A DNA stretch of 35,206 nt, from positions 1 to 35,206 of the IMG/VR virus record IMGVR_UViG_3300048442_000357. The stretch is one strand, 5' to 3'. The notes below the pieces were generated by a model, which was given only the letters and a program-made list of their open reading frames with translations, ran no database searches and was not told the DNA's origin. Positions 18,921 through 35,097 of the stretch are shown here, one piece after another. The number at the start of each line of letters is the position of its first letter. The first letter of the stretch is position 1. Source of the stretch: a virus. A program made the position numbers and the translations under genes.

Positions 18921-21900
18921 ATGAGTTTTCATATTAATTCCGATAAAGAAAAAATTAGGGGCGTAAACCCTAAACTCATCGGTGATAATGAAGCTACAAT
19001 TAGGGTAGGCACTGGGGCAAATGAACAAGAAATCATGCGCCTACAGAAAGATCCTGTTAGTGGTCTTCCTCGTGTAGGTATCAACAGAACAGGTCAAAGA
19101 GTCAATAATGTTAATATTGATCAGGGAGGGTCTGGATATAATCAAGTTCCATTAGTTGTAATTAGTTCTCCACCATCTGGTGGAGTTCAAGCTCAAGCGT
19201 CTGCTTCCGTTTTTAATGGTAGAGTTGTTTCAGTTTCTGTTAATGATCCCGGTAATGGATATACATCTGCACCATCTGTTAGTTTTACTGGAGGAAATGG
19301 TTCTGGTGCTGCAGCAACTGCTTTTCTTGATACTGTCGAGTTTGAACTTGACATCAATGGCGCTATCAGAACATCAACATCTATCATTTCTGATACAGCA
19401 AGAATTTTAAATCTGGATATTGAGAACTTTATTACTCCAGATTTGAACCTGAGGGCACCAAACCTCAAAACATATATGAATGGCACTGGTACGCCATGGG
19501 CTGCCAATGTTATTGTACAAAAAGATCAATATAGATATTCTGTTGCTAACGTATATCAAGCAGTTAGTACAGGAACTACAGGATCTTTAGCACCAGAACA
19601 TAAGGATGGTATTGAAGCAAATGGAACTGTAAACTTTAAACATATTGGTTTTAGGGTAACCACGCCAACAGAATTTCAGTATTTAGAAACCGGAGAAGCA
19701 GGAGCATTCCCGCGTTCTATTACTCCTCTACTTGGTGATAGATCAGACAAAATTGCCACCACAGAATACGTCCTCAACCTAGCAACGAATGACGTTGGTG
19801 GTCGTATCTATGTTTCACAACAGATTGGTTCTGACCTAAACGATGGTCGTTCTGCTGTGAACCCTGTCAGAACAATTAAGAAGGCAGCACAAGAGGCATG
19901 GAAAACTCCTGGTGTCAAAGAAACACTAATTGTTTCTGGTGGTAATTACGTAGAAGATAACCCAATCTCACTACCACCTGATTGTTCTGTTGTTGGTGAT
20001 AACCTTCGTTTGGTAATTATCAGACCTGGTAATGTTGGTAAGCACATCTTCAAGTTTGGTGATAAAAATTATGTTACTGGCGTAACTTATAGAGATAAAG
20101 TTGACTCCAATGGAGATGCCACTGGAACATGGGACTTTGCTATGGTCTTTGATGACAAGCAAAGAATCATTGTTGACAATGAAGTCAATGGAGATTTTGG
20201 TATTGAGTTCCCAGTTGGACATCAAATTTTTGGACCAGCTAGATTTCGTATCTCTTTCCAAAATAACACAGGATTAGCATTACTACAATCAGGAGTTCAA
20301 CTTTTAGGTTTGAACACTGGTGCTAGAGCGAATAGTTCTGGTGTATCTTTTACCTCATCAACTGGAGCAAATGCGTTTGTTGCAGGCACAATTGATGTAA
20401 CATTAGCATCTGGTTCTTTTATTGAAGGAGACCAGTATAGTTATATTACATCAGCTGCGGTTGGTGGCGCACTCTCACAAACAATTAGTGGAACTTCTGG
20501 AGAAAATAGTTTAAGGTTTACTACAGATCCATCAACAGATCTTCCAGTAAACAATGTTGTTTTCTTAGACGATACTGATAACTCATCATTTAGTTCAGGT
20601 TTTTACCAAGTTTCGGTTGTTAATAATGGTAATGCACCCACGTATTGGGATGTTACTTTTGTTCCTATTTTAGGTGCAGTGGGATGGGACAGCACTTTAT
20701 CTGATACAACAATCACGATTAACTCTGCATCACCAACATCAAATACTCTTGACAGCACAAATCTTAAGTCGATTAGAGCTGAAGGTGAGGTTGTTTCTTA
20801 TGACGAAGATATTATATCAACTCTGCCAATCACTAGGTTAGATTTCTCTCTACAGGGAGATCCTAGTATTGCTACTGGTGGTTTCCAATCTGATATTTAT
20901 GGAGACGCAGAAGATATTGGCGGTGTTGTTGTTTATACTAGTGCTCTTGTAGGTAGAACTAACTTCCACGAATTTAAAGAAGGTCAAGAAATTATTCTTG
21001 AAAACCTCCCAACTTCTGGACCAGACTTATCTTTCTTAAATGGAAAGCAAAGAATTTACAAAGTCTTAGAAGATGCTGATGGTCGCGCACGACGTTTTGT
21101 TATTCCAAAAAAAGTCCCCTCACTGACAACTGCCAACTTTGCCGTAAGTGAATTTGCTGTAGTAAAATCGTATTCTAAGTCGGTCACACTTTCATTACTA
21201 AACTCACCAAACAAATTTGCTGTAGCAACTCCTGCTGAAAGAAGATATCAGGATGCTTGTCAGTTAATTAGAAATAATAGAGACTACATCGCAGAAGAAG
21301 TAGTTGGTATTATTAACGATCAATTCAAATCAGATTACTATTCTGTATACAATTTAGATACAGGTAATAATACATTTGACATTTATCTAGGTCCACTGGA
21401 TCATGCAAACACATATGTCAGTGGTGGTACAGTAACGTTTGGGGGAACTTCTTATGCCATTAGTGGATTTGTATATGATACTGCAGTAACTGGTGTAGCT
21501 ACTATTACAACAACTGCAGTTGCCATTGCTGCATTGTCTGAAGATGATACTGTTCAGTTAGCAGATATTTTGATCTCTTGCACTGCCGGTGAGAAAATTT
21601 ATCCATCATATAGTTCACCAACAAACGCAAATACTGGGTCTAACGGTGATGAGCAATGTAAGCAAGACGTTATTCATTTCCTAAATGCTCTTGTAAGAGA
21701 CCTTGAGTTTGGATCTAACCACAACATTATCGAAGCTGCTTCCAAGTATATTGTAGGTGGAAAGATTGCTTTTATTGAAGATGAAATTATTCAAAATGTA
21801 CGTGCAATTGAATATGCTAGAGAGTTAGCAATTTATGCAATGTGTAATTGGAGGATTAAGAATAGAACAATTTCGGATCCTTTATACACAACAAAGTATG

Positions 21901-24900
21901 CTACATCACTAAGGTATACTGATACAACTATTGTTAATACAACAGCAGGAACTCCTGCTTGTGATGATGTAAGATCTGCTATTGATACACTAGCATACCT
22001 TTGGGCCGATGTTATTACTAATGATGCATCTGGAACATATCTTGATGCTGCTTATCTAATTGCCAAGAATGCTGATCTAATTGCAGACCAAGCACTTATT
22101 GATACCGAGGTAGCATATCCAACTTTAGGTCTTTCAAATATTCGCCAAAGAAAATGTCTTAGAGACATTAGACTTGTAATTGAAGGTCTTGTAAGAGACT
22201 TAGTTCTTGGAGGAAACCATGGTATTGTTTCTGCTGCAGAATCGTATTTTAGTGGAACTGTTCTTTCTGGAATTCCAGAAGCGCAATTGGATGAAACCAG
22301 ATATGCATTCCAGCAAGTAAAAGATCTTGCTATTGCGGCAATGCGTAATTGGACAGATGGAGATGTTTTAGCTACGACACCATCCACTGCTACGTATGCT
22401 CCAAACACTGGAGTATTTACAGTAACATTCCCAAATCCAGCAACACCTCCAGTAGCAAATCAAGATAGAATTGCTTTTGCGGAAGGAGCAATTACATTCA
22501 GTTGCGCCCATGATGGTGGTGGTAATGATGCAAGTCCATATAGAACAGACGCAAATTTCGGACAAAGTTTCTTAATTACCAATGTTTCAAATAATGGTGG
22601 AAATACTATTGTTACTGCCAACGTTGGTGTAGGTGGAAGCAATACGGACGCACACACGTTTGCAAGTGCATTAGCAAATGGAACTAAAATTATCTATGCT
22701 CCATTCGCAACAACTTCACTTATTCCAAAATTTGAAGATTGGAGTATTCTAGAAGATAGTGCAAACCCATCATGTGCTGCTATTGCTTCTGCTATCACAA
22801 CAGCACTAGCAACCTTTGATAGTATTTTAGAGTATGCTTCTGATGCTGTTAATGGTGCTGCTCCTGGATCTATTACTCAAACTTTCGGAACTTTATATGA
22901 AACAAATAGTCTTCTAACTTATCCTACTAGTTTCATCAATGACTTCAATAATAATAGGATGGCAGTTCGTGGTATATATGATGATTTGCCAATTATCGAA
23001 GCATCTCCATATACACAGAATGCTTCTGTTATCTCCTTTAGAGGTGGCGGTGGTGCAGAAATTGATGGTGATAAGGTCAAGCAACCTAACTGCCCCTTCC
23101 CTGGTCTAGAACCAGACGGAACAGCATCGTTCCCCAATCAGGGTAAGTCGATGGTTGCTGCGGCATTCACGATTGTCTCCTTTGGTGGCACAGGATATAA
23201 AGTTATCAACGATGGTTATACCCAGTTAGTTTCTGTCTTCGTTATTTTCTGCCAAGATGGTGTTCTTTGTGAGACTGGTGGTTATGCTTCTATCACCAAC
23301 TCTGCTACTAACTTTGGAACCTTTGCTCTAAGAGGAACAGGTTTCCGTAAAGATCCATATGAATTTGACGCTGGCACAGTTAATGTTGTTTCTCAAACAC
23401 CAACTGGTAGAACTATCCTTACTGTTGGCAATATCGGAAGAGAGCCACTAGAACATTACATTGTTAAAATTGATGGTTATAGAAATGCAGATCCAGATAA
23501 AGAATTCTTTATTGAATCTGTAAGTGGAGTTACTGTTGGTCCTCCTTTTACAGCAACAATTACTATTGACGATGGTATTGGAAATGGTCTAACTCTAATT
23601 AGAGAGTCTGATGGTGCAACTGTTTCTGGTCTAACAGCACTACAGCAAGCATTGACACCATCTAATTCAGCAAATGCTACCATTAGATTACACAGACCAT
23701 CTATCGTTAACTCTTCCTCACATACCTGGGAATTTGCAGGTTCTGGAACTAACTACTTAGCTCTCCCTGAGAACGGTGGAACTAAAGTTGAGGCAAACGA
23801 GCAGGTATCTGAAAACTATGGTCGTGTATATGTCTCAGGTACTGATGAACTAGGAGACTTTAAAGTTGGTACGTTTGCGAGAATTGAGAACAGAACTGGT
23901 AATATCACCTTTACTGGCACGGTTACAATTTCAGAAGTTGAATTCTTGAAACTGAAAGGTGGCGACGTTGTTGTTACCGGATTTGATAACTCGAATACTC
24001 TTGGTGGTGCTAATGCCACTGACTCCAAACTACCTACACAGAAGGCAGTTAAAGATTATATCACAAACTCTCTTGGTCCATATATTAACAAACCATATTC
24101 TACGAACGCTGTTCCTAGAGCACTGGTTGAACTTACAGATTCTGGTAAGATCTCTCTCGATCAGATCCCGGCATTAAGACCATTTAGTATTTTTACTGTC
24201 GTAAATGAAGCAGAAAGACTTTCTATCGACGGAGCACTTGCTGGAGATATTGCTATTCAAGATAATAGTGATATTGTAGATGGATCACCACAATCATTCA
24301 TTTTGAATAATGATTTAACCAGTCTGTTCCTTGGATTTGCTGTTGATGCATCATTATCATTTACTATCGGTAATGTATTTACTGGTTCTCCTTCTACTGG
24401 CAGAATTCAATCTACCGAGTATAGAGAAGGCGTATTATATAAAATCAATATTACAGATGGTGGTTCTGGATATACTGTTGCTCCAACGGTAACAATTTCT
24501 GGCGGTAATCCATCAGCAGGTTCTGTTCCTGCTACAGCAACTTGTACTATTGCTAATGGTGAAGTTGTTACTATTACTGTTACAGAAAACGCAAGTTATG
24601 TTGGCGGTTTTGGATACACAACACAACCAGTAGTTACTATTGCGGCACCTCCTGGAGCTGGCACACAAGCAACTGCTACTCCACTAATTGAAAGTAGATT
24701 GTATGGCAATATTGTCAATGCTATCAAGATGCTTGATACTGATACATTTGATGATAACAGTACTCCTGCAAATTCAGTTAATATTCTTAGGGTTGTCAAT
24801 ACATCTTCATCTCTTATTAGCAACTGGGTATCACTAAGTAGTGAAGCAGTTGGTGTTGGATCTCTTACTGGTCCTGGTGTTATTTCCACAACTTTATTGG

Positions 24901-27900
24901 GTTCAGAAGCGGCAAACTCCTTCTCCTTCTTAAGAGGAGACCAGAGATATGCAAAAACCGTTCAATCTTTAAAAGGAGCAGAAACAAGATACTTTGCGAG
25001 ATTATTTGCACAAGCATCCATAGGTGCAAGTTCGTTTATTTTCCAAGGATTATCTGGAGTTCTCAAAGGAAATACAATTTCTGATACCGTGGCTGGAGTA
25101 GTATCAGATACTACTGTAAATGGTGTTACTGTAGTTGGTGGTTTAACAACGGTTTCTTTTAACAATCCCATTGATGCCACTATTGCAGCAGGAACTGTTA
25201 TTGAATTTGGTCGTGGTGCTTCACCACTTGTTTTTGATTCTACAAATACAGGAGGAGACTTTATTGATTCTGTTGTAATTGCAAATCCAGGAACTGGATT
25301 TACTGATGGTCAGTACTTTGATGTGGCATTAGACGCACCTGCAGGAATTAATGGTAATGATCTGCGAGTAAATATTATTGTTGGAGAGAACGGACGATCT
25401 GGTGAAGTCACAACAGTTACTGTAACAAACGCTGGTGAGGGATATACCCAAGATTTCCAAGTTACTCCAAACCCATCAGTAGTTGGTTCTGGTTCTAATT
25501 TAGTTTTACTAGCAAAAGTAGCTACCACACAAAAACAATTTGCTAATATCGCATTAGATATCCAAAGAGTTTCTGATTTAACAATCTCCCAGGATCTCTT
25601 TGGTACTATTGGTGTTGCTAGATTTAAGAAGTCTCAGTTTAATATTGGTGATGAAGGAAACGGATCTATTTCTATTAAGATGGGTCCTGATAGTGGATTG
25701 GATGCTGACTTGCTAGATGGTCAGCAAGGTAATTACTACCTCAATGGTGCTTTCTTCGTTGATAGTAGTATCAATCCAGATAAACTTGCTAGTGGAACAT
25801 ACGGAATTGATATTAGTGGTAAATCTACTAACACACTTCGTCTTGATACTGGTATTAGCAACCCCAATGCAAACCCTGCTCCAAGTGATGCTGTTCAGGG
25901 TATAACACTACAAACATTGTTTAATAGTTCTAACGGTCTATTAACAGCATATCCAAGTGTAGATACTGGAAACCAGAACTCATCTAAGCATTTAGTAATG
26001 ACTCTCCGTAATGGAGAAACTGGTGGAGATGCTACATTTGGTGGCGTAAGACAACTTGCATTTGCTAATGACGATAGAATCTACTTCCGTGGATCTGGTG
26101 ATGGCGTATCAAATTATAATTCTTGGTTTGAACTTTGGACTTCTGGAAACCAAGGCGTTAGTTCTGGAATGGATTCTGATAAACTAGATAATAAAGAAGG
26201 TGTCTGGTATCAAGATGGTTGGAACATTAAAGACAATACAATTTTTGAAACTAGACTTCCAACATGGAGAAGTTCTACTAAATTCAGAGATAAGATTGAA
26301 GTTGCTTCGTATGGAGGAACAGATACTTTCTACAGAATTTTTGTAAGACAAAACCTTGATATTTCTATTGGCGGAGATTTTGAATCTACTAAGACAATTG
26401 ATCTTTACAATATTAATAAGTTAAGTGTTGGTGATTTTACAATTACAGCAACAGGACAAAATGTTGACTTAACTGATTCTTCTAATACTTATACAATGCT
26501 TACCGGAAGACTTGCTTCTGGTGGTAATATTGAATCTGCAGTTTATCTTGGATATGCCGGAGATGAAAGAGAGTTTGAACAGTATGAAATTTTTGATGAT
26601 AACACAGTTCAATATGCAGAATTAGGTAATAATTCTGGAACTGGTTATGTAAGACTTGGTAGGTATGATGGTCTTGCGGCAACTCAACCATACATCCATT
26701 TCAACTCTTCTCAAGCACAAGCAGTAGATAATAATGGAGATCCTACTTATAACTCTGCTATTATCGCTGATGGTGGCAATGCAAACGAAGGATCTGGTAG
26801 TCTTGAGTTTAAAGTTCTTAACGAAAATGAACTTAAAGTTAATAGCAATATTATTTGGAACGCAGGTAATGTCGCATTTAATAGTGCTAATGTAGCTTCC
26901 ACAACATCACTCAAGTCTGCTGTGATGAGAGATACCTCTGGTAATTTTACTGCCGGAACAATTACCGCTGGTATTATTGGTGCTGCTTCTCTCAACGTAT
27001 TGAAAACTGGTGATACCATGACTGGATCACTCAGTATTACTGGTGCCAGCAATGGATTAACTATTCAAACTGGAAATATTGCAATCAATGGTGGAGCAGG
27101 AACTGGAACTACTGGAAATCTAACAGTTAGCGGAAATCTTTTAGTTGATGAAGGAACTCTATATGTAAACAAAACAAATAATAGAGTAAGTGTTAGAGCA
27201 TATGATGATCCTCTAAATGCAGGAACACCATTTGAACCAAATCCTATTACTGGATTCAATGTTTATTCACAGTCAGGAAGTTTGAATATTCAAACTAATA
27301 CTGATCTTCGACAGAATACCATTTATCAGCAGCAAATTTGGAATTATGTTGATGGTGGTGAAACTGGTTTACTACTTACTCATGGTGCAACTGTAACTAC
27401 ACAGGCACAGTGGGGTATTTCTTGCCATAGAACTACTTCTAATTCTGGTGAACTTATCTTTAGAACAAGAACAGCATCTGCAGAAAATAAAAATAGATTG
27501 GTAATTGATAATAGTGGCAATTTAATTCCTGGTGCTGATAGTTCTCAAGATTTTGGAACTAGTGCTAAGAGATGGCAAAATTCTTATGTTGATATAGGAA
27601 TTTTTACAGACAGTGTAAGAATTGCCGATGGTTCTGCAAACAAAGAAGCAGATATTCATTTCAGAGGTGGTGGAACTGGTAATTCAGGAGGTAAAAATTT
27701 CCGTATTGGTTCTAATATTGGCGGTGGTATTGATACTTGGAGCATATATGCATCAGAAACAAATGGTAGCAGTGATTGGAAGAGTTTAGCAAGTCCTGCA
27801 CAAGCTCCTGCACTTTCAATCCAAGGAACAAACAATAGAGTTGCAATTAACACAACCCAATTCTCCGGCACAGACAACACTGATCCAAACAACCCAGAGA

Positions 27901-28301
27901 ATCGTAATTATATTCTGAATGTTCAGGGTGATATGAACCTCAATGGTATTTTATATCAAGATAATGCGGAGTTTGTTACTTCCAGATGGACAGAAGCATC
28001 CACAACTAATATCAATGCCAACATCAAAGATATCTACAGGTTATCTGCAGTAGGCATAAATAATTCGAGTCCTACATATGCACTAGATGTTGATGGAGAC
28101 ATTAACCTAACTGGAGCATTCCGTGTAGGAGGAACTGCACAATGGATTGATTCAGCAGGTATTATTAGAGTATCCAATACGGTAATTAGTGAGAATGTTA
28201 CTATTCCTGGTAGTACAATTGCATCTAGTCAAGGTCCAATTACAATAACAAACACATTTACCGTTGTAATTAACTCTGGTGCGGAATGGAGTATCAATTA
28301 A
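18921..28301 (+). CDS. Giant tail fibre protein with beta-helix and helical modules
   Basis: This 3126-residue protein has the N-terminus MSFHINSDKEKIRGVNPKLI, then VGTGANEQEIMRLQKDPVSG, typical of cyanophage fibres. In order: GxGY repeats (about 53-145); an aromatic module (WAANVIVQKDQYRY, about 190-245); FPRSITPLLGDRSDKIATTEYV split around 265-290; a beta-helix start (GRIYVSQQIGSDLNDGRSAV, then RTIKKAAQEA, from 292); helical modules with paired cysteines (about 773-1310); more beta-helix (VISFRGGGGAEIDGDKVKQP to ALRGTGFRKDP, about 1350-1480); TDSKLPTQKAVKDYI (about 1698); GxGY repeats (about 1840-1925 and 2110-2200); and TMTGSLSI and SSQDFGTSAKRWQNS fibre motifs. It ends in VINSGAEWSIN. Probably a trimeric long fibre for host binding. 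It has its own late promoter. Which end meets the host is not shown. Confidence 0.86.
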   Translation: MSFHINSDKEKIRGVNPKLIGDNEATIRVGTGANEQEIMRLQKDPVSGLPRVGINRTGQRVNNVNIDQGGSGYNQVPLVVISSPPSGGVQAQASASVFNGRVVSVSVNDPGNGYTSAPSVSFTGGNGSGAAATAFLDTVEFELDINGAIRTSTSIISDTARILNLDIENFITPDLNLRAPNLKTYMNGTGTPWAANVIVQKDQYRYSVANVYQAVSTGTTGSLAPEHKDGIEANGTVNFKHIGFRVTTPTEFQYLETGEAGAFPRSITPLLGDRSDKIATTEYVLNLATNDVGGRIYVSQQIGSDLNDGRSAVNPVRTIKKAAQEAWKTPGVKETLIVSGGNYVEDNPISLPPDCSVVGDNLRLVIIRPGNVGKHIFKFGDKNYVTGVTYRDKVDSNGDATGTWDFAMVFDDKQRIIVDNEVNGDFGIEFPVGHQIFGPARFRISFQNNTGLALLQSGVQLLGLNTGARANSSGVSFTSSTGANAFVAGTIDVTLASGSFIEGDQYSYITSAAVGGALSQTISGTSGENSLRFTTDPSTDLPVNNVVFLDDTDNSSFSSGFYQVSVVNNGNAPTYWDVTFVPILGAVGWDSTLSDTTITINSASPTSNTLDSTNLKSIRAEGEVVSYDEDIISTLPITRLDFSLQGDPSIATGGFQSDIYGDAEDIGGVVVYTSALVGRTNFHEFKEGQEIILENLPTSGPDLSFLNGKQRIYKVLEDADGRARRFVIPKKVPSLTTANFAVSEFAVVKSYSKSVTLSLLNSPNKFAVATPAERRYQDACQLIRNNRDYIAEEVVGIINDQFKSDYYSVYNLDTGNNTFDIYLGPLDHANTYVSGGTVTFGGTSYAISGFVYDTAVTGVATITTTAVAIAALSEDDTVQLADILISCTAGEKIYPSYSSPTNANTGSNGDEQCKQDVIHFLNALVRDLEFGSNHNIIEAASKYIVGGKIAFIEDEIIQNVRAIEYARELAIYAMCNWRIKNRTISDPLYTTKYATSLRYTDTTIVNTTAGTPACDDVRSAIDTLAYLWADVITNDASGTYLDAAYLIAKNADLIADQALIDTEVAYPTLGLSNIRQRKCLRDIRLVIEGLVRDLVLGGNHGIVSAAESYFSGTVLSGIPEAQLDETRYAFQQVKDLAIAAMRNWTDGDVLATTPSTATYAPNTGVFTVTFPNPATPPVANQDRIAFAEGAITFSCAHDGGGNDASPYRTDANFGQSFLITNVSNNGGNTIVTANVGVGGSNTDAHTFASALANGTKIIYAPFATTSLIPKFEDWSILEDSANPSCAAIASAITTALATFDSILEYASDAVNGAAPGSITQTFGTLYETNSLLTYPTSFINDFNNNRMAVRGIYDDLPIIEASPYTQNASVISFRGGGGAEIDGDKVKQPNCPFPGLEPDGTASFPNQGKSMVAAAFTIVSFGGTGYKVINDGYTQLVSVFVIFCQDGVLCETGGYASITNSATNFGTFALRGTGFRKDPYEFDAGTVNVVSQTPTGRTILTVGNIGREPLEHYIVKIDGYRNADPDKEFFIESVSGVTVGPPFTATITIDDGIGNGLTLIRESDGATVSGLTALQQALTPSNSANATIRLHRPSIVNSSSHTWEFAGSGTNYLALPENGGTKVEANEQVSENYGRVYVSGTDELGDFKVGTFARIENRTGNITFTGTVTISEVEFLKLKGGDVVVTGFDNSNTLGGANATDSKLPTQKAVKDYITNSLGPYINKPYSTNAVPRALVELTDSGKISLDQIPALRPFSIFTVVNEAERLSIDGALAGDIAIQDNSDIVDGSPQSFILNNDLTSLFLGFAVDASLSFTIGNVFTGSPSTGRIQSTEYREGVLYKINITDGGSGYTVAPTVTISGGNPSAGSVPATATCTIANGEVVTITVTENASYVGGFGYTTQPVVTIAAPPGAGTQATATPLIESRLYGNIVNAIKMLDTDTFDDNSTPANSVNILRVVNTSSSLISNWVSLSSEAVGVGSLTGPGVISTTLLGSEAANSFSFLRGDQRYAKTVQSLKGAETRYFARLFAQASIGASSFIFQGLSGVLKGNTISDTVAGVVSDTTVNGVTVVGGLTTVSFNNPIDATIAAGTVIEFGRGASPLVFDSTNTGGDFIDSVVIANPGTGFTDGQYFDVALDAPAGINGNDLRVNIIVGENGRSGEVTTVTVTNAGEGYTQDFQVTPNPSVVGSGSNLVLLAKVATTQKQFANIALDIQRVSDLTISQDLFGTIGVARFKKSQFNIGDEGNGSISIKMGPDSGLDADLLDGQQGNYYLNGAFFVDSSINPDKLASGTYGIDISGKSTNTLRLDTGISNPNANPAPSDAVQGITLQTLFNSSNGLLTAYPSVDTGNQNSSKHLVMTLRNGETGGDATFGGVRQLAFANDDRIYFRGSGDGVSNYNSWFELWTSGNQGVSSGMDSDKLDNKEGVWYQDGWNIKDNTIFETRLPTWRSSTKFRDKIEVASYGGTDTFYRIFVRQNLDISIGGDFESTKTIDLYNINKLSVGDFTITATGQNVDLTDSSNTYTMLTGRLASGGNIESAVYLGYAGDEREFEQYEIFDDNTVQYAELGNNSGTGYVRLGRYDGLAATQPYIHFNSSQAQAVDNNGDPTYNSAIIADGGNANEGSGSLEFKVLNENELKVNSNIIWNAGNVAFNSANVASTTSLKSAVMRDTSGNFTAGTITAGIIGAASLNVLKTGDTMTGSLSITGASNGLTIQTGNIAINGGAGTGTTGNLTVSGNLLVDEGTLYVNKTNNRVSVRAYDDPLNAGTPFEPNPITGFNVYSQSGSLNIQTNTDLRQNTIYQQQIWNYVDGGETGLLLTHGATVTTQAQWGISCHRTTSNSGELIFRTRTASAENKNRLVIDNSGNLIPGADSSQDFGTSAKRWQNSYVDIGIFTDSVRIADGSANKEADIHFRGGGTGNSGGKNFRIGSNIGGGIDTWSIYASETNGSSDWKSLASPAQAPALSIQGTNNRVAINTTQFSGTDNTDPNNPENRNYILNVQGDMNLNGILYQDNAEFVTSRWTEASTTNINANIKDIYRLSAVGINNSSPTYALDVDGDINLTGAFRVGGTAQWIDSAGIIRVSNTVISENVTIPGSTIASSQGPITITNTFTVVINSGAEWSIN
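21247..22020 (+). repeat. Helical Cys-pair module, fibre copy A
   Basis: DACQLIRNNRDYIAEEV, then a beta insertion (about 21340-21640), then QCKQDVIHFLNALVRDLEFG, SNHNIIEAASKYI, a LAIYAMCNW motif and ACDDVRSAIDTL. It aligns by motif order with the copy at 190-663. Confidence 0.72.
22045..22850 (+). repeat. Helical Cys-pair module, fibre copy B
   Basis: DAAYLIAKNADLIADQAL, KCLRDIRLVIEGLVRDLVLG, GNHGIVSAAESYF, LAIAAMRNW, a beta insertion (about 22370-22760), then SCAAIASAITTALATFDSIL. The closest partner is copy A, which it follows directly. Confidence 0.72.
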
Positions 28302-28318
28302 TTAGGAGATAAATAACA

Positions 28319-28525
28319 ATGTCGGAAATACAAGTCGGCACCTTAAATATGGAGTATGGAACAAAGGGAGGATTGCAACTCCCTAAATACTCTTTGAGTG
28401 CCACAGGAGCTCCAGCATTACCCAGTACTGGAGTTGCAACTGGAGATATCTGTTTTGAAATTGACGAAAAAATTGTAATGATTTACGTCACTAACCAATG
28501 GATAGAAATATCAGATATTCTATAA
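28319..28525 (+). CDS. Small fibre-head-module protein
   Basis: A 68-residue protein, MSEIQVGTLNMEYGTKGGLQ, then LPKYSLSATG, GDICFEIDEK and YVTNQWIEISDIL. It matches the first 60 residues of the next protein in layout (VG.L.....G..LP.....P..G...G......V.I......W...S). It therefore looks like an isolated copy of a fibre N-terminal module rather than a fragment. A clear Shine-Dalgarno AGGAG (28304-28308) lies 10 bases before the ATG. It follows the giant fibre by 17 bases, so it may be co-transcribed with it and could cap or connect a fibre. The function is not otherwise visible. Confidence 0.72.
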   Translation: MSEIQVGTLNMEYGTKGGLQLPKYSLSATGAPALPSTGVATGDICFEIDEKIVMIYVTNQWIEISDIL

Positions 28526-28550
28526 GTATAAAACCACTGTTTTAAAAAAA

Positions 28551-29636
28551 ATGTCTAGATTAAATGTAGGAAAATTAATTGCATCTGTTGGTATCAGATT
28601 GCCTGGATTTACTGATTCTACCAGACCTGGCGGAGAGCAAGGTTTGATGATCTATAATTCACAAAGTGGAATTGTAGAAATTTTTGATGGTAGTGAATGG
28701 AACAATGTATCAACCGGTTCTTTTACATTGAATGCAGTTGGTGGTTCTGAATATGAATCAAATGGTTATAAGTATCATGTATTTGTTGGTCCAGGAACTT
28801 TTAGTGTAACAGAAGCAAAAGCAGGAGCAACAATTGATGTCCTTGTAGTTGCTGGCGGTGGTGGTGCTGGAAACTACTATTACTGTGGCGGTTCTGGTGC
28901 TGGTGGTGTAGTTAATGTTCAAAACTATCCCGTGCAGGCGATTGGTAATTCTGCTCCAGTCACAGTTGGTGCGGGTGGCGCATATCCATATGGTGATGGA
29001 ATCGATTCATCTTTTGCCGGAGTACTAACTGCTAAGGGTGGTGGTTCTGGCGGAGGTTATCCATATGGTTATAGCGGAAAACCCGGTGGTTCTGGTGGAG
29101 GTGGAAGTCTCTACGTATCCGGCAGTGGAACAGCATCTCAATCAAGCATCAGTCAATCAACTGGATCTGGTCAATTAGTCAACAACGCTGGAAATCCTGG
29201 CGGTCCAGGACCAGGATGGCCAGGCACCCCAACTGGTGGTGGCGGTGGTGGCGGTGCCGGTGCTTCAGGTCAACCATGGGGCCCGGGTAAATGTGGTGAT
29301 GGTGGTGTAGGTTTACAAATTAATGGATTCAGTGCAGCAGATCATCCACAACTAGCTACAGCAGGAAAATATGGTGGCGGTGGTGGCGGTGGAACATATT
29401 CACCAAATGATCCAAGTCGTAAAGGATATGGTGGTATCAACCCAGGAGGATCCGCTGGAGATCCACAAGGGCAACGTTATGGTGGTGGTAATGGAGGAAC
29501 TAGTGGTCCATCGGGCAATGGTTATGCTTCTGAAGCTGGAATGGAAAGAACTGGTGGTGGCGCTGGCGGACCAGATTATCCGCATTCCATTGGCGGTGGA
29601 TCTGGCGTTGTAGCAATACGTTATTTAACTAATTAG
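28551..29636 (+). CDS. Glycine/tyrosine-rich tail adhesin-like protein
   Basis: A 361-residue protein. Residues 1-55 are a fibre-head module (MSRLNVGKLIASVGIRLPGF, IVEIFDGSEWNNVS). From about residue 70, YKYHVFVGPGTFSV and IDVLVVAGGGGAG start a glycine-rich domain of the type found in phage and bacterial surface proteins. The rest is dominated by runs of Gly with Tyr, Pro and Ser (NYYYCGGSGAGG, GGYPYGYSGKPGGSGGGG, GGGGGGGAGASGQPWG, GGKYGGGGGGGTYSP-like stretches), ending GGGSGVVAIRYLTN. Glycine-rich tips built of packed polyglycine helices are known in T-even-type adhesins (gp38 class), which is a reasonable structural analogue, not a proven homologue. The two Cys lie in loop-like Gly stretches. 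A weak late-like box (TATAAGTA, 28521) sits 30 bases upstream. The reading frame is intact. Confidence 0.8.
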   Translation: MSRLNVGKLIASVGIRLPGFTDSTRPGGEQGLMIYNSQSGIVEIFDGSEWNNVSTGSFTLNAVGGSEYESNGYKYHVFVGPGTFSVTEAKAGATIDVLVVAGGGGAGNYYYCGGSGAGGVVNVQNYPVQAIGNSAPVTVGAGGAYPYGDGIDSSFAGVLTAKGGGSGGGYPYGYSGKPGGSGGGGSLYVSGSGTASQSSISQSTGSGQLVNNAGNPGGPGPGWPGTPTGGGGGGGAGASGQPWGPGKCGDGGVGLQINGFSAADHPQLATAGKYGGGGGGGTYSPNDPSRKGYGGINPGGSAGDPQGQRYGGGNGGTSGPSGNGYASEAGMERTGGGAGGPDYPHSIGGGSGVVAIRYLTN

Positions 29637-29647
29637 GATATTTTCAA

Positions 29648-30055
29648 ATGGCACATTTTGCACAATTAAATGAAGATGATGTAGTGGTATTTGTAACACC
29701 ACTAGATAATAAACTTTTACTAGATTCAACTGGATCAGAACAGGAAAGTAAAGGAATAGATTATTTAAAAAACCAATTTGGATCGAATACCAAATGGGTA
29801 CAAACTTCATATCACCATAAATTTAGGGGAATTTATGCTGGTCTTGGATTTCAATACAATAGAGAAACTGATAGATTTGAAGCGCCAAAACCTAGACAAT
29901 TTCCTTCATGGGTTTGGGATGAAGGTAGACACGTATGGAGACCACCAGTACCAAGACCCGGATTATCTCCAGAACAATATGATCAAGGATTCATGCCACA
30001 ATGGGATGAAGAAACAATTTCTTGGAAAATTATTCAAGGACCACCAACTTTCTGA
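29648..30055 (+). CDS. Trp-rich conserved phage protein
   Basis: A 135-residue protein starting MAHFAQLNEDDVVVFVTPLD. It belongs to a group of uncharacterised proteins common in marine phages, recognisable by MAHFA, a central KWVQTSYHHKFRGIYAGLGF stretch and a C-terminal FPSWVWDE...W..P block. It carries six Trp (KWV, PSW, VWD, HVW, PQW, SWK), an unusual density, and a proline-rich segment (RPPVPRPGLSPEQY). No signal peptide or membrane segment was seen. It sits 11 bases after the adhesin stop and 8 bases before the sulfotransferase, bridging the adhesin genes and the enzyme cassette. It may be a fibre-associated protein or a substrate of the cassette; both are inference. Related proteins often sit next to tail fibre genes. 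Confidence 0.75.
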   Translation: MAHFAQLNEDDVVVFVTPLDNKLLLDSTGSEQESKGIDYLKNQFGSNTKWVQTSYHHKFRGIYAGLGFQYNRETDRFEAPKPRQFPSWVWDEGRHVWRPPVPRPGLSPEQYDQGFMPQWDEETISWKIIQGPPTF

Positions 30056-30063
30056 TATATTAA

Positions 30064-30840
30064 ATGAGTGAAAAAACATATTACTTTCTTACTGGGTTTC
30101 CCAGGAGTGGTAATACTTTATTATCTTCTTTGTTAAATCAAAATCCAGAAATCCTTGTATATGCAAATAGTATGCTCCCAGAGATGCTGTTTGATTTGCA
30201 TATAAAAAAAGATTCAAATCCAACATTTAACAATTTTCCGGATCATAGACCTATTGAAAATATATCTAAAAATTTATTTGACAACTATTATAGTCATTTA
30301 AATTCAAAGTATATTTTTGATAGGTCTTCTTGGTCTTCAGAAATAATGACAGAGTTGCTACGTGAGTATTGTCCCAATCAAACTAAAATATTATTTTTAC
30401 ATCGTGATCCTATAGAAATTTTAGCATCATTCATAAAATGGTCAACAGAAAACAAAACTTTTTTAGATAATTTTGATACATTAGAAAGTAAATGCAATCA
30501 TTTGATGAGACATGATGGTCCTATTATGAGGCATTTTACATCAATACACAATATTATCTCTAATGATATTCCATGTATGTTTGTTTCTTACGATAATATC
30601 GTTAAAGATACGCACATAACTATAGAAAAAATTTACAAATTTTTTGGCATCATGTTATACGAGCATGACTATATTAAAGTAGAAGAGTTTAGTGTAGATG
30701 GTATCTCATACAACGATACTGTCTATGGTAATAACTTACATAAGGTAAGACAAACAATTTCCAGAGATGTATATTCTCCAGAAAAATACTTATCTGACAG
30801 TATAATTTTAAAATGGCAGCATCTAAAAATACCAGTTTAA
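30064..30840 (+). CDS. Sulfotransferase family protein (PAPS-dependent)
   Basis: This 258-residue protein is likely to transfer a sulfuryl group from PAPS to a hydroxyl or amine acceptor in the infected cell. Near the N-terminus, TGFPRSGNTLLSSLLNQNP (residues 10-28) is the 5'-phosphosulfate-binding loop (PRSGTTLL type, with Asn where Thr is more usual). The 3'-phosphate site is RDPIEILAS, with R114 and S122 at the usual spacing after a hydrophobic strand (KILFLHRDP). Later, PCMFVSYDNIVKD and EKIYKFFGI fit the fold's C-terminal helices. The length suits small soluble sulfotransferases. The acceptor cannot be read from sequence. It lies eight bases after the Trp-rich gene, with a 44-base AT-rich gap after it. 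Possible acceptors include Tyr on virion proteins, glycans and metabolites. Confidence 0.82.
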   Translation: MSEKTYYFLTGFPRSGNTLLSSLLNQNPEILVYANSMLPEMLFDLHIKKDSNPTFNNFPDHRPIENISKNLFDNYYSHLNSKYIFDRSSWSSEIMTELLREYCPNQTKILFLHRDPIEILASFIKWSTENKTFLDNFDTLESKCNHLMRHDGPIMRHFTSIHNIISNDIPCMFVSYDNIVKDTHITIEKIYKFFGIMLYEHDYIKVEEFSVDGISYNDTVYGNNLHKVRQTISRDVYSPEKYLSDSIILKWQHLKIPV

Positions 30841-30853
30841 AACTAGAATATAT

Positions 30854-30863
30854 AGTATATACT
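30854..30863 (+). promoter_or_regulatory. AT-rich palindrome before the first oxygenase (weak promoter candidate)
   Basis: AGTATATACT is a perfect 10-base palindrome in the gap between the sulfotransferase and the first oxygenase, within a run of alternating A/T. It could include a -10-like TATACT, but no convincing -35 or late box is present. A GGAG at 30868-30871 lies 13 bases before the ATG. Confidence 0.25.
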
Positions 30864-30884
30864 TAATGGAGTTTTTGGATTATT

Positions 30885-31511
30885 ATGGCATTTCAAACAA
30901 TGTGGTATTTCACAGATTTACCGGGAGATGTTATTGATTGCATTGAAAAAGACTTAACAAATCAATTTGATCAACAATTAGAAGAATCAAAACTTTCGGG
31001 TGATGTGGTAGATGTTGACAGAAGATCTTCTACAAATGCTTGGGTTCCAACTACCCATTGGGTTTCTGGATTTGTTTGGCATTATATATCAAAAGCAAAT
31101 AGAGAAAATTTTTTATATGATTTGACACATGTTGATGGTGAAACTATGCAATACACCAGATACAAAGAAGGAGATTATTACAAATGGCATACTGATGCTG
31201 GTATTGGAACGTCATATAAACCACAAGCATCAGACAATTATGGTAACAAAGATATAGAAGTACAAGATTTTCTTACAACTAGCGTTGAAAATATAAGAAA
31301 ATTATCTTTTATTCTTCAACTCTCAGATGCAGAAGATTATGAAGGAGGAAACGTTCAATTTTTAGATGACAATCGAAAATCATTTTTTGCTCCTAGGAAA
31401 AAAGGAACTATGATTCTTTTTGATTCTAGAACACAACATAGAGTTTTAAAAGTGACAAAAGGAATTAGAAAATCATTGGTTGGATGGACCAGTGGACCTA
31501 GGTGGAAATAA
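30885..31511 (+). CDS. 2OG-Fe(II) oxygenase (prolyl 4-hydroxylase-like / PKHD type)
   Basis: A 208-residue non-haem iron oxygenase that would use 2-oxoglutarate and O2 to hydroxylate a substrate. The jelly-roll core carries H102-x-D104 (YKWHTDAG), distal H185 (FDSRTQHRV) and R195 for 2-oxoglutarate (KGIRKSLVGW). YEGGNVQFLD and KKGTMILFDS are the expected strands before the distal His. The layout matches the PKHD/prolyl 4-hydroxylase group, common in cyanophages. It is the first of four oxygenase-like genes in a row. The stop is two bases before the next ATG, and that gene's Shine-Dalgarno (AGGTGG) lies inside this gene, so coupling is likely. Substrate unknown: peptidyl Pro or Lys, or a metabolite, would be normal for the family. 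Confidence 0.87.
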   Translation: MAFQTMWYFTDLPGDVIDCIEKDLTNQFDQQLEESKLSGDVVDVDRRSSTNAWVPTTHWVSGFVWHYISKANRENFLYDLTHVDGETMQYTRYKEGDYYKWHTDAGIGTSYKPQASDNYGNKDIEVQDFLTTSVENIRKLSFILQLSDAEDYEGGNVQFLDDNRKSFFAPRKKGTMILFDSRTQHRVLKVTKGIRKSLVGWTSGPRWK

Positions 31512-31513
31512 TC

Positions 31514-32179
31514 ATGAATATTGAAAACGTAGAAAAACTTTTTAACAGTACAGCAGGCAGTAAGACATCAAATCCAGAGTTTGATAAAAGCGGATTTGTT
31601 TTAGTAAAAGGTATTATAGATCCTTCTCGTCTGATATGTGATATCCCAGAAGAGAAAGGTCTTTACCATTACTATGGTAAAGAAGATAAATTTACACACA
31701 TTCCAAATGAAGACCAGGTTCCTGGATCTACATCTAGATATTATTGGCCTCCATATAAAGAAATTCATAATGATCTAAAAAACAAAATCCAAGATATCAT
31801 TGGAAAAAAACTTTACCATACTTATTACTACGATAGATTTTATTTTGACGGTCAGGATTTAAGTCCGCATACAGATAGAGATGCATGTGAAATTTCTATC
31901 TCAGTTCATATTGGTACTAACATTAAAGAACCATGGGGATTTTGGATTGAAAATGGTGATGGAAAACGTGCTCGCATTTACATGGAACCTGGAGACGGAG
32001 TAATCTATAAAGGTTGTGAAAGAATGCACTGGCGAGAAAAAATGCCAGAAAAGAAACAAGGATTTATTAATAGAATCTTTAGAAGAAAAACAAATGATGC
32101 ATACTACCATCAGGCATTTTTCCACTATGTTCTGGCAGATGGCAATAGAGCACATTGTGCTTTTGATGCATCTAGATAA
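31514..32179 (+). CDS. 2OG-Fe(II) oxygenase-like protein (HxD...HWRE type)
   Basis: A 221-residue protein. I place the start at ATG 31514 (MNIENVEKLF), with AGGTGG at 31500-31505, rather than the in-frame GTG at 31502 that overlaps the previous gene. The iron site reads H119-T-D121 (LSPHTDRDACEIS) and H172 (CERMHWREKMP), with GDGVIYKGCE just before the distal His. This 'YKGCE..HWRE' arrangement is known from a group of phage and bacterial prolyl-hydroxylase-like proteins. The C-terminus QAFFHYVLADGNRAHCAFD is also characteristic. FDKSGFVLVKGIID near residue 25 resembles the N-terminal strand of this group. Its stop TAA shares one base with the next ATG (TAATG). The substrate is unknown. Confidence 0.8.
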   Translation: MNIENVEKLFNSTAGSKTSNPEFDKSGFVLVKGIIDPSRLICDIPEEKGLYHYYGKEDKFTHIPNEDQVPGSTSRYYWPPYKEIHNDLKNKIQDIIGKKLYHTYYYDRFYFDGQDLSPHTDRDACEISISVHIGTNIKEPWGFWIENGDGKRARIYMEPGDGVIYKGCERMHWREKMPEKKQGFINRIFRRKTNDAYYHQAFFHYVLADGNRAHCAFDASR

Positions 32180-32733
32180 TGGACTACAATTTAGTTTCTG
32201 ATGACTTAAGGATTCTTTCCATTAAAGAGTTCTTACATCCAAATATAATTGAAAGATTTTTTATCAAAAAAATCTTAGAAGACAACTACCAAAAAGATGC
32301 GATTACAAAAAATACTTTAGGGTATAACTATCTAATAAATTCAGATCACAAATTTTTTACAAATTTATATTCAAAATTTTTAGATGTTAGTAAAAATATT
32401 TTTTCCGGCATAAATATTTCCCCAAATAATTCATCAAAACTTTGGGGTTATAGATCAAATAAGGATGTATGGGCGTCAGTATTTCATGATCATGAAAAAA
32501 CATCAACAATAAATGCTGTATATTATTTTGATTTGAGTCCTAGTGATAGTATTTCATTTCAAAAAAACAATAAAGTATTTACATATTCCCCAGAAAAATA
32601 TGAGTTGCTAATTTTTCCTGGAACGTTAAAACACAAACCAGATAGACCACTAAAAAATAAAATTAGATACTCTATCAATATAGAAATAATTACAACTCAA
32701 TCTGCATATTATTTGTTCTATGAAAAATTATAA
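32179..32733 (+). CDS. Putative 2OG-Fe(II) oxygenase-like protein (HxH type)
   Basis: A 184-residue protein with weaker but readable oxygenase features. H103-D-H105 (VFHDHEKTS) precedes a strand AVYYFDLSP, and FPGTLKHKPDRPLKNKIRYS supplies H152 and a basic residue, followed by SINIEI. The pattern 'H.H......YY......P......FPG.L.H......R.S.N' resembles the putative 2OG-Fe(II) oxygenase family (PF13759 type) also seen in the next gene. HxH stands where classical enzymes have HxD/E, so activity is less certain. The N-terminal 80 residues are Lys/Asn-rich and unrecognised. It starts on the last base of the previous stop and overlaps the next gene by 14 bases. Confidence 0.62.
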   Translation: MDYNLVSDDLRILSIKEFLHPNIIERFFIKKILEDNYQKDAITKNTLGYNYLINSDHKFFTNLYSKFLDVSKNIFSGINISPNNSSKLWGYRSNKDVWASVFHDHEKTSTINAVYYFDLSPSDSISFQKNNKVFTYSPEKYELLIFPGTLKHKPDRPLKNKIRYSINIEIITTQSAYYLFYEKL

Positions 32734-33316
32734 TATTGAGTACATTTATCCAACCCCATTGTATCAAACACATGTTTATAATTTAAATGACATTCAGGAT
32801 GAATTAAAATTAATTGTAGATCATACAGAATTTGTGCAGATTGAACGTTGGAAAAATACTCACTACTTATCTTCAAAGTCATTTGAGGACGATCTTATTA
32901 AAGATAACAATCTTGTTTATTTTTCTGATGAACTTGATTTTCACATTAGAAATTTTTGTAAAGAGATGAACTTTGAGATTAGACCATATAAGACAGAATC
33001 TTGGATATCTCTTTTTAAAAATAAAAATTATGGTCACACCCATTCACATGGACATGTTGATATCTCAGGAGTTTATTATTATCAAACTTCTGGTGATGAT
33101 GGAGATTTATTTTTTGAATGTCCCGTGCCAAACATGTCATCTTCGTTTATGTTTTTTGAATCTATGGCACAGAGATGGAATCACAAACCAGAAGTTGGGA
33201 AATTGCTACTATTTCCTGGATGGTTAAGACATGGTATTTCTACTAATAATACCGACAATACAAGAATTAGTATTTCTTTCAACATAACTTTCGATAGAGG
33301 AGTAATAAAAAAATGA
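32720..33316 (+). CDS. Putative 2OG-Fe(II) oxygenase (PF13759-like)
   Basis: A 198-residue protein starting MKNYNIEYIYPTPLYQTHVY, the 'P..P.Y' opening of this family. The core is ESWISLFKNKNYGHTHSHGH, then VDISGVYYYQT, DLFFECPVP, KLLLFPGWLRHGIS (H171) and TRISISFNITFDRG. The family motif H-x-H.....lSGvyY aligns with H108-S-H110; H112-V-D114 immediately after is an alternative HxD reading, so the iron ligands are ambiguous. Members of this family are common in marine T4-like phages, with substrates mostly unknown. It overlaps the previous gene by 14 bases and the halogenase start by four (ATGA), which suggests coordinated translation with the halogenase. Confidence 0.8.
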   Translation: MKNYNIEYIYPTPLYQTHVYNLNDIQDELKLIVDHTEFVQIERWKNTHYLSSKSFEDDLIKDNNLVYFSDELDFHIRNFCKEMNFEIRPYKTESWISLFKNKNYGHTHSHGHVDISGVYYYQTSGDDGDLFFECPVPNMSSSFMFFESMAQRWNHKPEVGKLLLFPGWLRHGISTNNTDNTRISISFNITFDRGVIKK

Positions 33317-34887
33317 AAATTGTAATTGCTGGAGGTGGATTAACTGGATGGATATCTGCTTTTGTGTTATCCAAAAAATATCCAGACAACCAATTTGTTG
33401 TTATTGATAGCAGTAAAGATCCTACTATTGGTGTTGGAGAAGGAACTACTGGATATTTTGCTAACAAATTTTTGAGAGGGGAAGATTTTACAGTACGAGA
33501 GTTTTTTGAAAAAACTAAAGCTACCCCAAAATTAGGTATTGAATTTAATGATTGGGGAAGAAAAGGAGATTCTTTTTTAAGTCCTATTGATGGATCTGCT
33601 ACAAAACAATGCAATATAGATTTTTCTACATATTTTGACTATACTCAACCAGGACAACTTGGAGAGTCTAGTTTATTAGGAACACTAAGAAAACACAATA
33701 GAGTTCCATTTAAGAGAGGATCTGTAGATAATACGAATGGTATAGAAAACGATTTTATTTGGGAAGACGTAGCAGTTCATTTAGATAATGAATCTACAAT
33801 TAAATTTTTTAAAGAAAAAACTATCAATAGGGAAAACGTAGCGTGTATTGATGATTCTATTGTAAGCGTAGTCAAAAGTAAAAAAGGAGTTGAAAAAGTA
33901 GTATGTGAAAATACTTCTGTATATGGAGACTTGTTTTTAGATTGCACTGGTTTCAAACGATTGTTATCTAAAAATGTAAAATGGATTAGTTATAGTAAAT
34001 ATCTACCAACAAACTCTGTTATCACTTTCCAGACAACAGAAAATCATAGTGGATCACAAGAAAATATTGAGATTGGTATTGATGGAGAAAAAGTAGTAAA
34101 AGGATACTTAACACAAGTTGATTTAGTTACAAAAGCAAATGCCATGAATGATGGTTGGTCTTGGTTAATTCCAACTCAAGAAAGGTATGGTGGTGGGTAT
34201 GTTTATTGTGATTACTTTACAAATGAAGACAAAGCTACTAAAGAATTATTAGAAAAGTATCCTGGAGCTGAGATTGGCAAATCTTTCAAATTTGATTCCG
34301 GCAAACAAAAAACTTCATGGAACGATAACGTTATCTCAATGGGATTAGCATATCAATTCCTAGAACCTTTGCAAGCTACTAGTATTCATTTTACATTAGT
34401 TCAATTAGATTTGATTGAACGATATTGTATTAAAGGAACAAAAGAATTTACTTTGGATTCTAATAGTAGAATTAAATACAACGAACATGTAGATAGAGTT
34501 ATTGAAAACTTTAAAGACATGATTAATATGCATTACTCAGGAAAAAGAAATGATACTAAATTTTGGAAATATATTAGCAAACAATATCATCTAACAGATT
34601 TTACAAAACATATTATTAAAACTTTAAGAACTAGAGGATTGTTTTATTGGGATTTTACTAATGAGTATGGAACAACAGGACAAGAATTATGGATGTATCC
34701 ACTCTTAGGATTAAATCATCTTACTAAAGATGAGTGTTTTGGTTTGTTAATAAATAGTAAGTTGATGCAATATGCTTCAGAAGAATATTACAGACTTAGT
34801 ACAGAGGCGTCAACATTACACAACAAATATTTTTACAAAGAAGAGTTCTTTGTAATCTTAGATAAATATAAGAACACATCAACATAG
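33313..34887 (+). CDS. Flavin-dependent halogenase (tryptophan halogenase family, VirX1-like)
   Basis: A 524-residue enzyme expected to use FADH2, O2 and halide to make a hypohalous species that halogenates an aromatic substrate. FAD binding: IAGGGLTGW (G7, G9, G12) and GVGEGTTG (from residue 40). K73 in TPKLGIEFNDW corresponds to the catalytic lysine of PrnA/RebH. GWSWLIP (281-287) is the WxWxIP halogenase motif that distinguishes the family from monooxygenases. LFLDCTGFKRLL and LAYQFLEPLQATSIHF (E351) are also typical. The length matches PrnA/RebH. The cyanophage Syn10 enzyme VirX1, a family member that prefers iodide, is the natural comparison. The ATG overlaps the previous TGA. No flavin reductase gene is visible, so reduced FAD would come from the host or another phage locus. 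The substrate is not deducible. Confidence 0.9.
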   Translation: MKIVIAGGGLTGWISAFVLSKKYPDNQFVVIDSSKDPTIGVGEGTTGYFANKFLRGEDFTVREFFEKTKATPKLGIEFNDWGRKGDSFLSPIDGSATKQCNIDFSTYFDYTQPGQLGESSLLGTLRKHNRVPFKRGSVDNTNGIENDFIWEDVAVHLDNESTIKFFKEKTINRENVACIDDSIVSVVKSKKGVEKVVCENTSVYGDLFLDCTGFKRLLSKNVKWISYSKYLPTNSVITFQTTENHSGSQENIEIGIDGEKVVKGYLTQVDLVTKANAMNDGWSWLIPTQERYGGGYVYCDYFTNEDKATKELLEKYPGAEIGKSFKFDSGKQKTSWNDNVISMGLAYQFLEPLQATSIHFTLVQLDLIERYCIKGTKEFTLDSNSRIKYNEHVDRVIENFKDMINMHYSGKRNDTKFWKYISKQYHLTDFTKHIIKTLRTRGLFYWDFTNEYGTTGQELWMYPLLGLNHLTKDECFGLLINSKLMQYASEEYYRLSTEASTLHNKYFYKEEFFVILDKYKNTST

Positions 34888-34896
34888 GTGATAACC

Positions 34897-35097
34897 ATGG
34901 ATCCAGCACAACTTAAAACAAATTTTGAAGAGCAAATTGCTACAACCGAAAAGCAAATTGCTGAACTAGAAACAAATCTAGTTAAAGCAAAAGAGTATAA
35001 GATTAAACTAGAAGGAGGTCTAGAAACTCTAGGTCTTCTAGAAGACAAACCTGAAGAGGAAGCAGCAGAAGCAGCGCCAACAGAAGTAGTAGAATAA
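34897..35097 (+). CDS. Small acidic coiled-coil protein
   Basis: A 66-residue protein. I choose ATG 34897 (MDPAQLKTNFEEQIATTEKQ) because AGGTG (34886-34890) sits six bases upstream; an in-frame GTG at 34888 overlaps that site. Residues 4-40 show heptad-like Leu/Ile spacing with alternating charge (IAELETNLVKAKEYKIKLEG), so a coiled coil is likely. The C-terminus is acidic and low-complexity (EDKPEEEAAEAAPTEVVE). Small proteins of this kind occur near structural genes in cyanophages without a known role. It follows the halogenase by nine bases and is the last gene before a strong terminator. Confidence 0.76.
   Translation: MDPAQLKTNFEEQIATTEKQIAELETNLVKAKEYKIKLEGGLETLGLLEDKPEEEAAEAAPTEVVE

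Follow-up and report, generated by a model that had tools for sequence, protein, structure and literature searches.

What the active-site Glu does in flavin-dependent halogenases is a matter of debate, and experiments to date have relied on mutants. In PrnA, the E346Q mutant is approximately 100-fold slower and the K79A mutant is dead (PMC5727139). In MalA, the change from Glu to Gln abolishes activity, and phenol halogenases have been described that operate without an active-site Glu (PMC8407142). According to published gene tables, 14 of 16 cyanophages have 2OG oxygenases and far fewer have a halogenase (PMC3037559). Here, we analyzed a halogenase gene in 35,206 nucleotides of viral DNA (IMG/VR record IMGVR_UViG_3300048442_000357, positions 1 to 35,206), hereafter the window. 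The family and its viral members are known, and the genomic site is known to be variable; the new element is a natural subgroup that carries Gln at the position of this Glu. The open-access library that we searched contained no account of a natural Gln at the Glu346 site, which is weak evidence of novelty.

The tail-fiber cassette

We assign the window to a marine Chalconvirus-like cyanophage, as two of its structural proteins share 92-99% identity with their counterparts in Synechococcus phage ACG-2014e (genus Chalconvirus). DNA homology to ACG-2014e/i (85-94%) ends at base 27991 inside the tail fiber and resumes at 34889, at phrog_580. ACG-2014e/i have no island at this site and contain approximately 1.5 kb there, compared with a 6.9-kb cassette in the window, and no PF04820 gene is present in either complete genome. 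The cassette contains the fiber tip, a Gly-rich protein, a sulfotransferase, oxygenases and the halogenase. The features discussed below are as follows.

18921-28301, + strand: tail fiber, 3126 aa; homology to ACG-2014e/i reaches about base 27991, and the tip has diverged
27992-34888, + strand: cassette exchanged relative to Synechococcus phage ACG-2014e/i, from the fiber tip to the halogenase
28551-29636, + strand: Gly/Tyr-rich protein (PF21722), probable tail-fiber adhesin
29648-30055, + strand: phrog_7759 protein, function not assigned
30064-30840, + strand: sulfotransferase (PF13469/PF00685)
30885-31511, + strand: 2OG-Fe(II) oxygenase, PKHD-like (PF13640)
31502-32179, + strand: phrog_2954 protein, labeled ferrochelatase in PHROGs, with a weak 2OG oxygenase match in Pfam
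32179-32733, + strand: 2OG-Fe(II) oxygenase-like protein (weak PF13759, phrog_81)
32720-33316, + strand: 2OG-Fe(II) oxygenase-like protein (PF13759, E 3.8e-19; TIGR02466), overlapping the halogenase gene by ATGA
33313-34887, + strand: Gln-type variant A flavin-dependent halogenase, 524 aa, with GGGLTGW at 7-13, K73, WSWLIP at 282-287 and FLEPLQATSIH at 349-359
34372-34374, + strand: codon CAA for Gln354, at the position of PrnA Glu346
34888-35097, + strand: phrog_580 protein, the conserved border on the right; contig L001 continues from here into the neck gene region

The GC content is 25-34% in the enzyme genes compared with 35-38% in the flanking structural genes. A second contig, L001, agrees with the window at 7893 of 7894 positions and may come from the same population; it spans the right-hand border into the neck gene region (88-95% identity) and extends leftward into the fiber. 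The equivalent region of marine myophages has been described as the "host recognition cluster" (PMC7029224), and the sequence places the halogenase in a host-recognition cassette that is exchangeable and located at the tail fiber. Three phages have VirX1-type halogenases at the same site: Syn10 with VirX1 and its neighbor, S-RIM44 with two genes and Sf-FR1 with a single one. In all three, Gly-rich PF21722 proteins precede these halogenases. Most loci reached through phrog_580 contain no halogenase. An association between halogenases and Gly-rich proteins at the phrog_580 site (p about 0.02-0.03) was discarded because two of the counted loci lack the EPL motif and the remaining loci are few. 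These two loci (L204:6040-7533 and L228:5518-7011, both on the minus strand) encode 498-aa halogenase-profile matches in a tail-fiber island.

Active site and spread of the Gln subgroup

The halogenase ORF begins with ATG and is complete, with no internal stop. A profile search matched residues 2-448 to PF04820 (E 2.1e-77; 261 bits against a cut-off of 21), and the product matched phrog_2928, "tryptophan halogenase", with E 2.4e-101. Among solved halogenases, 9luq was the best sequence match, followed by VirX1 and MibH. An AlphaFold model, calculated from a 34-row alignment of the window enzyme and IMG/VR proteins, had a mean pLDDT of 88.5 and a pTM of 0.89. VIA-align superimposed it on PyrH with a Z of 40.5 and 2.3 Å over 474 aligned residues; Z was about 40 for PyrH and SttH, 37.8 for PrnA and 34.1 for VirX1. 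By profile and full-length predicted fold, the product is a variant A flavin-dependent halogenase, in agreement with the original prediction of a phage enzyme of a known family.

The three motifs that the original prediction had called intact are all present: GGGLTGW conforms to the GxGxxG dinucleotide motif, WSWLIP conforms to WxWxIP, and K73 aligns with the catalytic lysine (PrnA K79) and is invariant in the alignment. However, the "full catalytic signature" claimed from them does not hold. The active-site loop reads FLEPLQATSIH compared with FLEPLESTGIY in PrnA, and the phmmer alignment places Gln354 on PrnA Glu346, so that the active-site Glu of the tryptophan/indole subgroup is absent. 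This column was confirmed in two ways: the deposited PrnA E346D mutant (2jkc) departs from the wild type exactly where Gln354 aligns, and residue counting also gives PrnA number 346. In addition, PrnA Ser347 is replaced by Ala355, and the halide-binding loop T348-G349 of PrnA, which makes backbone contacts, corresponds at the sequence level to T356-S357. The CAA codon is identical in the second contig, and this contig together with the many divergent Gln relatives rules out a sequencing error or a lone decayed copy. The earlier reading passed over this site and concluded that the enzyme should be active, which is unsupported because the catalytic Glu is Gln. Considering the 100-fold loss in PrnA E346Q and the inactive MalA mutant, activity of the window enzyme cannot be deduced from its motifs. 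Judging from these substitutions, its chemistry probably differs from that of the studied relatives.

The Gln is shared by a group of viral enzymes. A scan of viral contigs, using patterns that do not involve the site, together with phage records fetched earlier, yielded 149 homologous ORFs. The Glu346 column of the 146 aligned rows contained Glu in 120, Gln in 22 (the window and three copies included) and Gly in 4. Thinning to 90% identity and full length left 9 Gln representatives and 75 others (72 Glu and 3 Gly). The nine have a mean pairwise identity of 0.41 and only 56 invariant columns, among which are Gln354 and the lysine. A further viral scan, with patterns containing the Gln motif and thus biased toward this type, provided 48 Gln-type ORFs, counting copies but not the window, the closest being 46-48% identical; the FAD motif and the K73 lysine are kept wherever the region is covered. 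The distinct viral Gln sequences number 30 and fall nearly all in one assemblage, and almost all other viral homologues carry Glu. In bacteria, a pattern that admitted Glu or Gln retrieved 139 ORFs from 80 loci; 129 of these have Glu at this column and none has Gln. The Gln-type relatives are under purifying selection: most pairs gave dN/dS values of approximately 0.06-0.23, although many dS values are saturated.

In a first tree, all Gln sequences lay on one branch (support 92). In a wider tree of 145 rows with the Glu/Gln site masked, all 30 distinct Gln sequences fell inside one 44-row group (support 98), with 5 Glu sequences among them at weakly supported nodes and 3 changes by parsimony. 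A strict single origin of Gln was therefore dropped, and the trees indicate one to a few Glu/Gln switches, nearly confined to one viral assemblage. The two types also coexist: S-RIM44 has two Glu-type halogenases at the tail-fiber site and one Gln-type elsewhere in its genome, and contig L282 has both types in overlapping genes, which suggests a division of labor. Separately, a Gly variant in four contigs of about 3.5-5.0 kb (L047, L058, L061 and L071) reads FLEPLGSGGHT, with Gly at the Glu346 position; IIAGES replaces IGVGES, and GWRFNIDL stands where the WxWxIP motif would be. Up to four tandem halogenase genes, often overlapping and interspersed with 2OG oxygenases, occur in large marine phage contigs (L032, L043, L062, L093, L282 and L264).

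These data bear on whether the window enzyme is a conventional indole-type halogenase in which Gln is tolerated, being slower or compensated by another residue. Its fold is nearest to the Trp-5/6 halogenases PyrH and SttH, it retains K73 and WxWxIP, and the equivalent PrnA mutant is slowed rather than dead (PMC5727139). Nevertheless, Gln is invariant over nine divergent representatives with Glu only one base away, and a hampered enzyme should revert; we consider this explanation rather unlikely. A loss of halogenation, leaving a flavin monooxygenase or oxidase or a generator of free hypohalite, would fit the disappearance of a transfer-step residue while the FAD site stays. We regard this as improbable, because the transfer lysine, whose replacement kills PrnA, is invariant in the Gln set and would be pointless without halogenation.

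Neighboring oxygenases and a putative mechanism

The original prediction noted a four-base overlap with a PF13759-type oxygenase gene, which we confirmed, and proposed the oxygenase as a candidate partner. We compared gene positions in records of at least 60 kb with positions rotated within each record: 39 of 90 PF13759 genes lay within 5 kb of a halogenase, compared with 9.8 expected (0/2000), in a set whose large contigs had been chosen because they contain a halogenase. Restricted to the nine complete phages, the count was 10 of 52 compared with 3.3 expected (11/2000). Thus, viral halogenases in general have more 2OG oxygenases nearby than expected. However, among distinct loci with room on both sides of the halogenase, an oxygenase abuts the Gln type in only 6 of 26 (7 of 27 with the window counted) and the Glu type in 14 of 35. 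We therefore rejected the oxygenase as an obligate partner: the adjacent gene is absent in most relatives, and what survives of the proposal is the general clustering.

In a small alignment, the presumed first iron-ligand motif of both PF13759-like proteins of the window (32179-33316) reads HxH instead of HxD. Six other loci (L050, L053, L068, L070, L076 and L077) carry the gene set of the window island (phrog_7759, oxygenases, sulfotransferase and halogenase), but there the halogenase is of the Glu type and belongs to another branch, a pattern resembling an exchange of this gene within the cassette.

The clustering of halogenases and 2OG oxygenases in viral genomes is what would be expected if the halogenase, oxygenases and sulfotransferase formed a small-molecule or surface-polysaccharide pathway. 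Such a role has been proposed for the related cluster of cyanophage S-SSM6a, with a halogenated metabolite or a decorated polysaccharide as the predicted product (PMC7824862). For the window, we think it has a low probability: among the cassette genes scanned, we identified neither a carbamoyltransferase or methylase nor any other gene of core biosynthesis, and at the same site in contig L023 a Gln-type halogenase lies between a fiber-like protein and phrog_580 without any oxygenase.

We tentatively favor, as a possibility somewhat short of probable, an intact two-component-type halogenase of the Gln subgroup that directs HOX through K73 onto an aromatic substrate needing no base, the substrate being plausibly fiber-related. 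A host reductase would supply FADH2, HOX would be made at the flavin/halide site and pass to K73, and an electron-rich aromatic that requires no carboxylate base, such as a phenol, would be halogenated. As the original prediction had noted, no reductase is in view: PF01613, the flavin reductase family that we searched, is absent from the window, which is a genome fragment, and from 24 other halogenase-bearing records (0 of 25 in total, nine being complete phage genomes), and was detected in 13 of 14 control genomes, including Synechococcus elongatus. The host may supply the reductase. A carboxylate-free mechanism is proposed because the PrnA mutants and the phenol halogenases point to it; the inactive MalA mutant counts against activity of a Gln-type enzyme.

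The location at the tail fiber suggests a substrate that would be made for, or recognized by, the fibers. Most Gln-type relatives of known place, such as that of S-PM2 and the third S-RIM44 halogenase, lie far from the tail-fiber site, beside tRNA and hli genes, and a tail-fiber substrate therefore cannot be general. A more specific proposal is that the Glu to Gln change suits phenolic side chains and that the tail-cassette enzyme, with the 2OG oxygenases and the sulfotransferase, halogenates tyrosines of the Gly/Tyr-rich fiber protein. If true, this would represent enzymatic decoration of receptor-binding proteins. We consider it very unlikely, and the open-access library contained no report of halogenases that modify tail fibers.

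The roughly 30 distinct viral enzymes with a natural, selected Gln offer a direct test of the role of the Glu and could be a source of halogenases that act on a different class of substrate. That the window gene lies in a host-recognition cassette provides a concrete lead on the purpose of phage halogenases.

Comparison with described halogenases

The window enzyme shares the full-length fold, GxGxxG, the catalytic Lys and WxWxIP with PrnA, RebH, PyrH and Thal. It differs in the catalytic Glu-Ser pair (346-347 in PrnA), which is Gln354-Ala355 in the window enzyme. The phenol halogenases RadH/Rdc2 also have no active-site Glu (PMC8407142) but belong to another family branch.

The Gln-type halogenases of S-PM2 and S-RIM44 (T4-GC 212) belong to the same assemblage as the window enzyme and share FLEPLQATSIH. 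They differ in that they are 36% identical to it, lie near tRNA, hli and talC genes and have no adjacent oxygenase. In this subgroup, the start of the halogenase gene is overlapped by a conserved protein of 94-110 aa that carries NDVISFG toward its end; the S-PM2 copy has no Pfam match. It was located as follows.

L003:7720-8004 and L004:7714-8001, also in L017, L020, L027 and L035: 94-110-aa NDVISFG protein

The halogenase is split into two ORFs in the S-PM2 genome in IMG/VR (196280 bases) and is intact in the record of an S-PM2 deletion mutant (L022:4986-6473 compared with L003:7986-9473).

VirX1, which the original prediction had named as a relative, is indeed a viral PF04820 flavin-dependent halogenase (cyanophage Syn10, PDB 6QGM), and it occupies the same genomic site between the genes for the tail fiber and those for the neck, where Gly-rich proteins and 2OG oxygenases are also encoded. 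However, the relationship is distant: the two enzymes are approximately 25% identical and lie on separate tree branches, and the model is closer to PyrH than to VirX1 (Z 40 compared with 34). Moreover, VirX1 retains the catalytic Glu where the window enzyme has Gln. From its branch and its Gln, we conclude that the window halogenase falls outside the VirX1 subgroup and is not a VirX1 ortholog.
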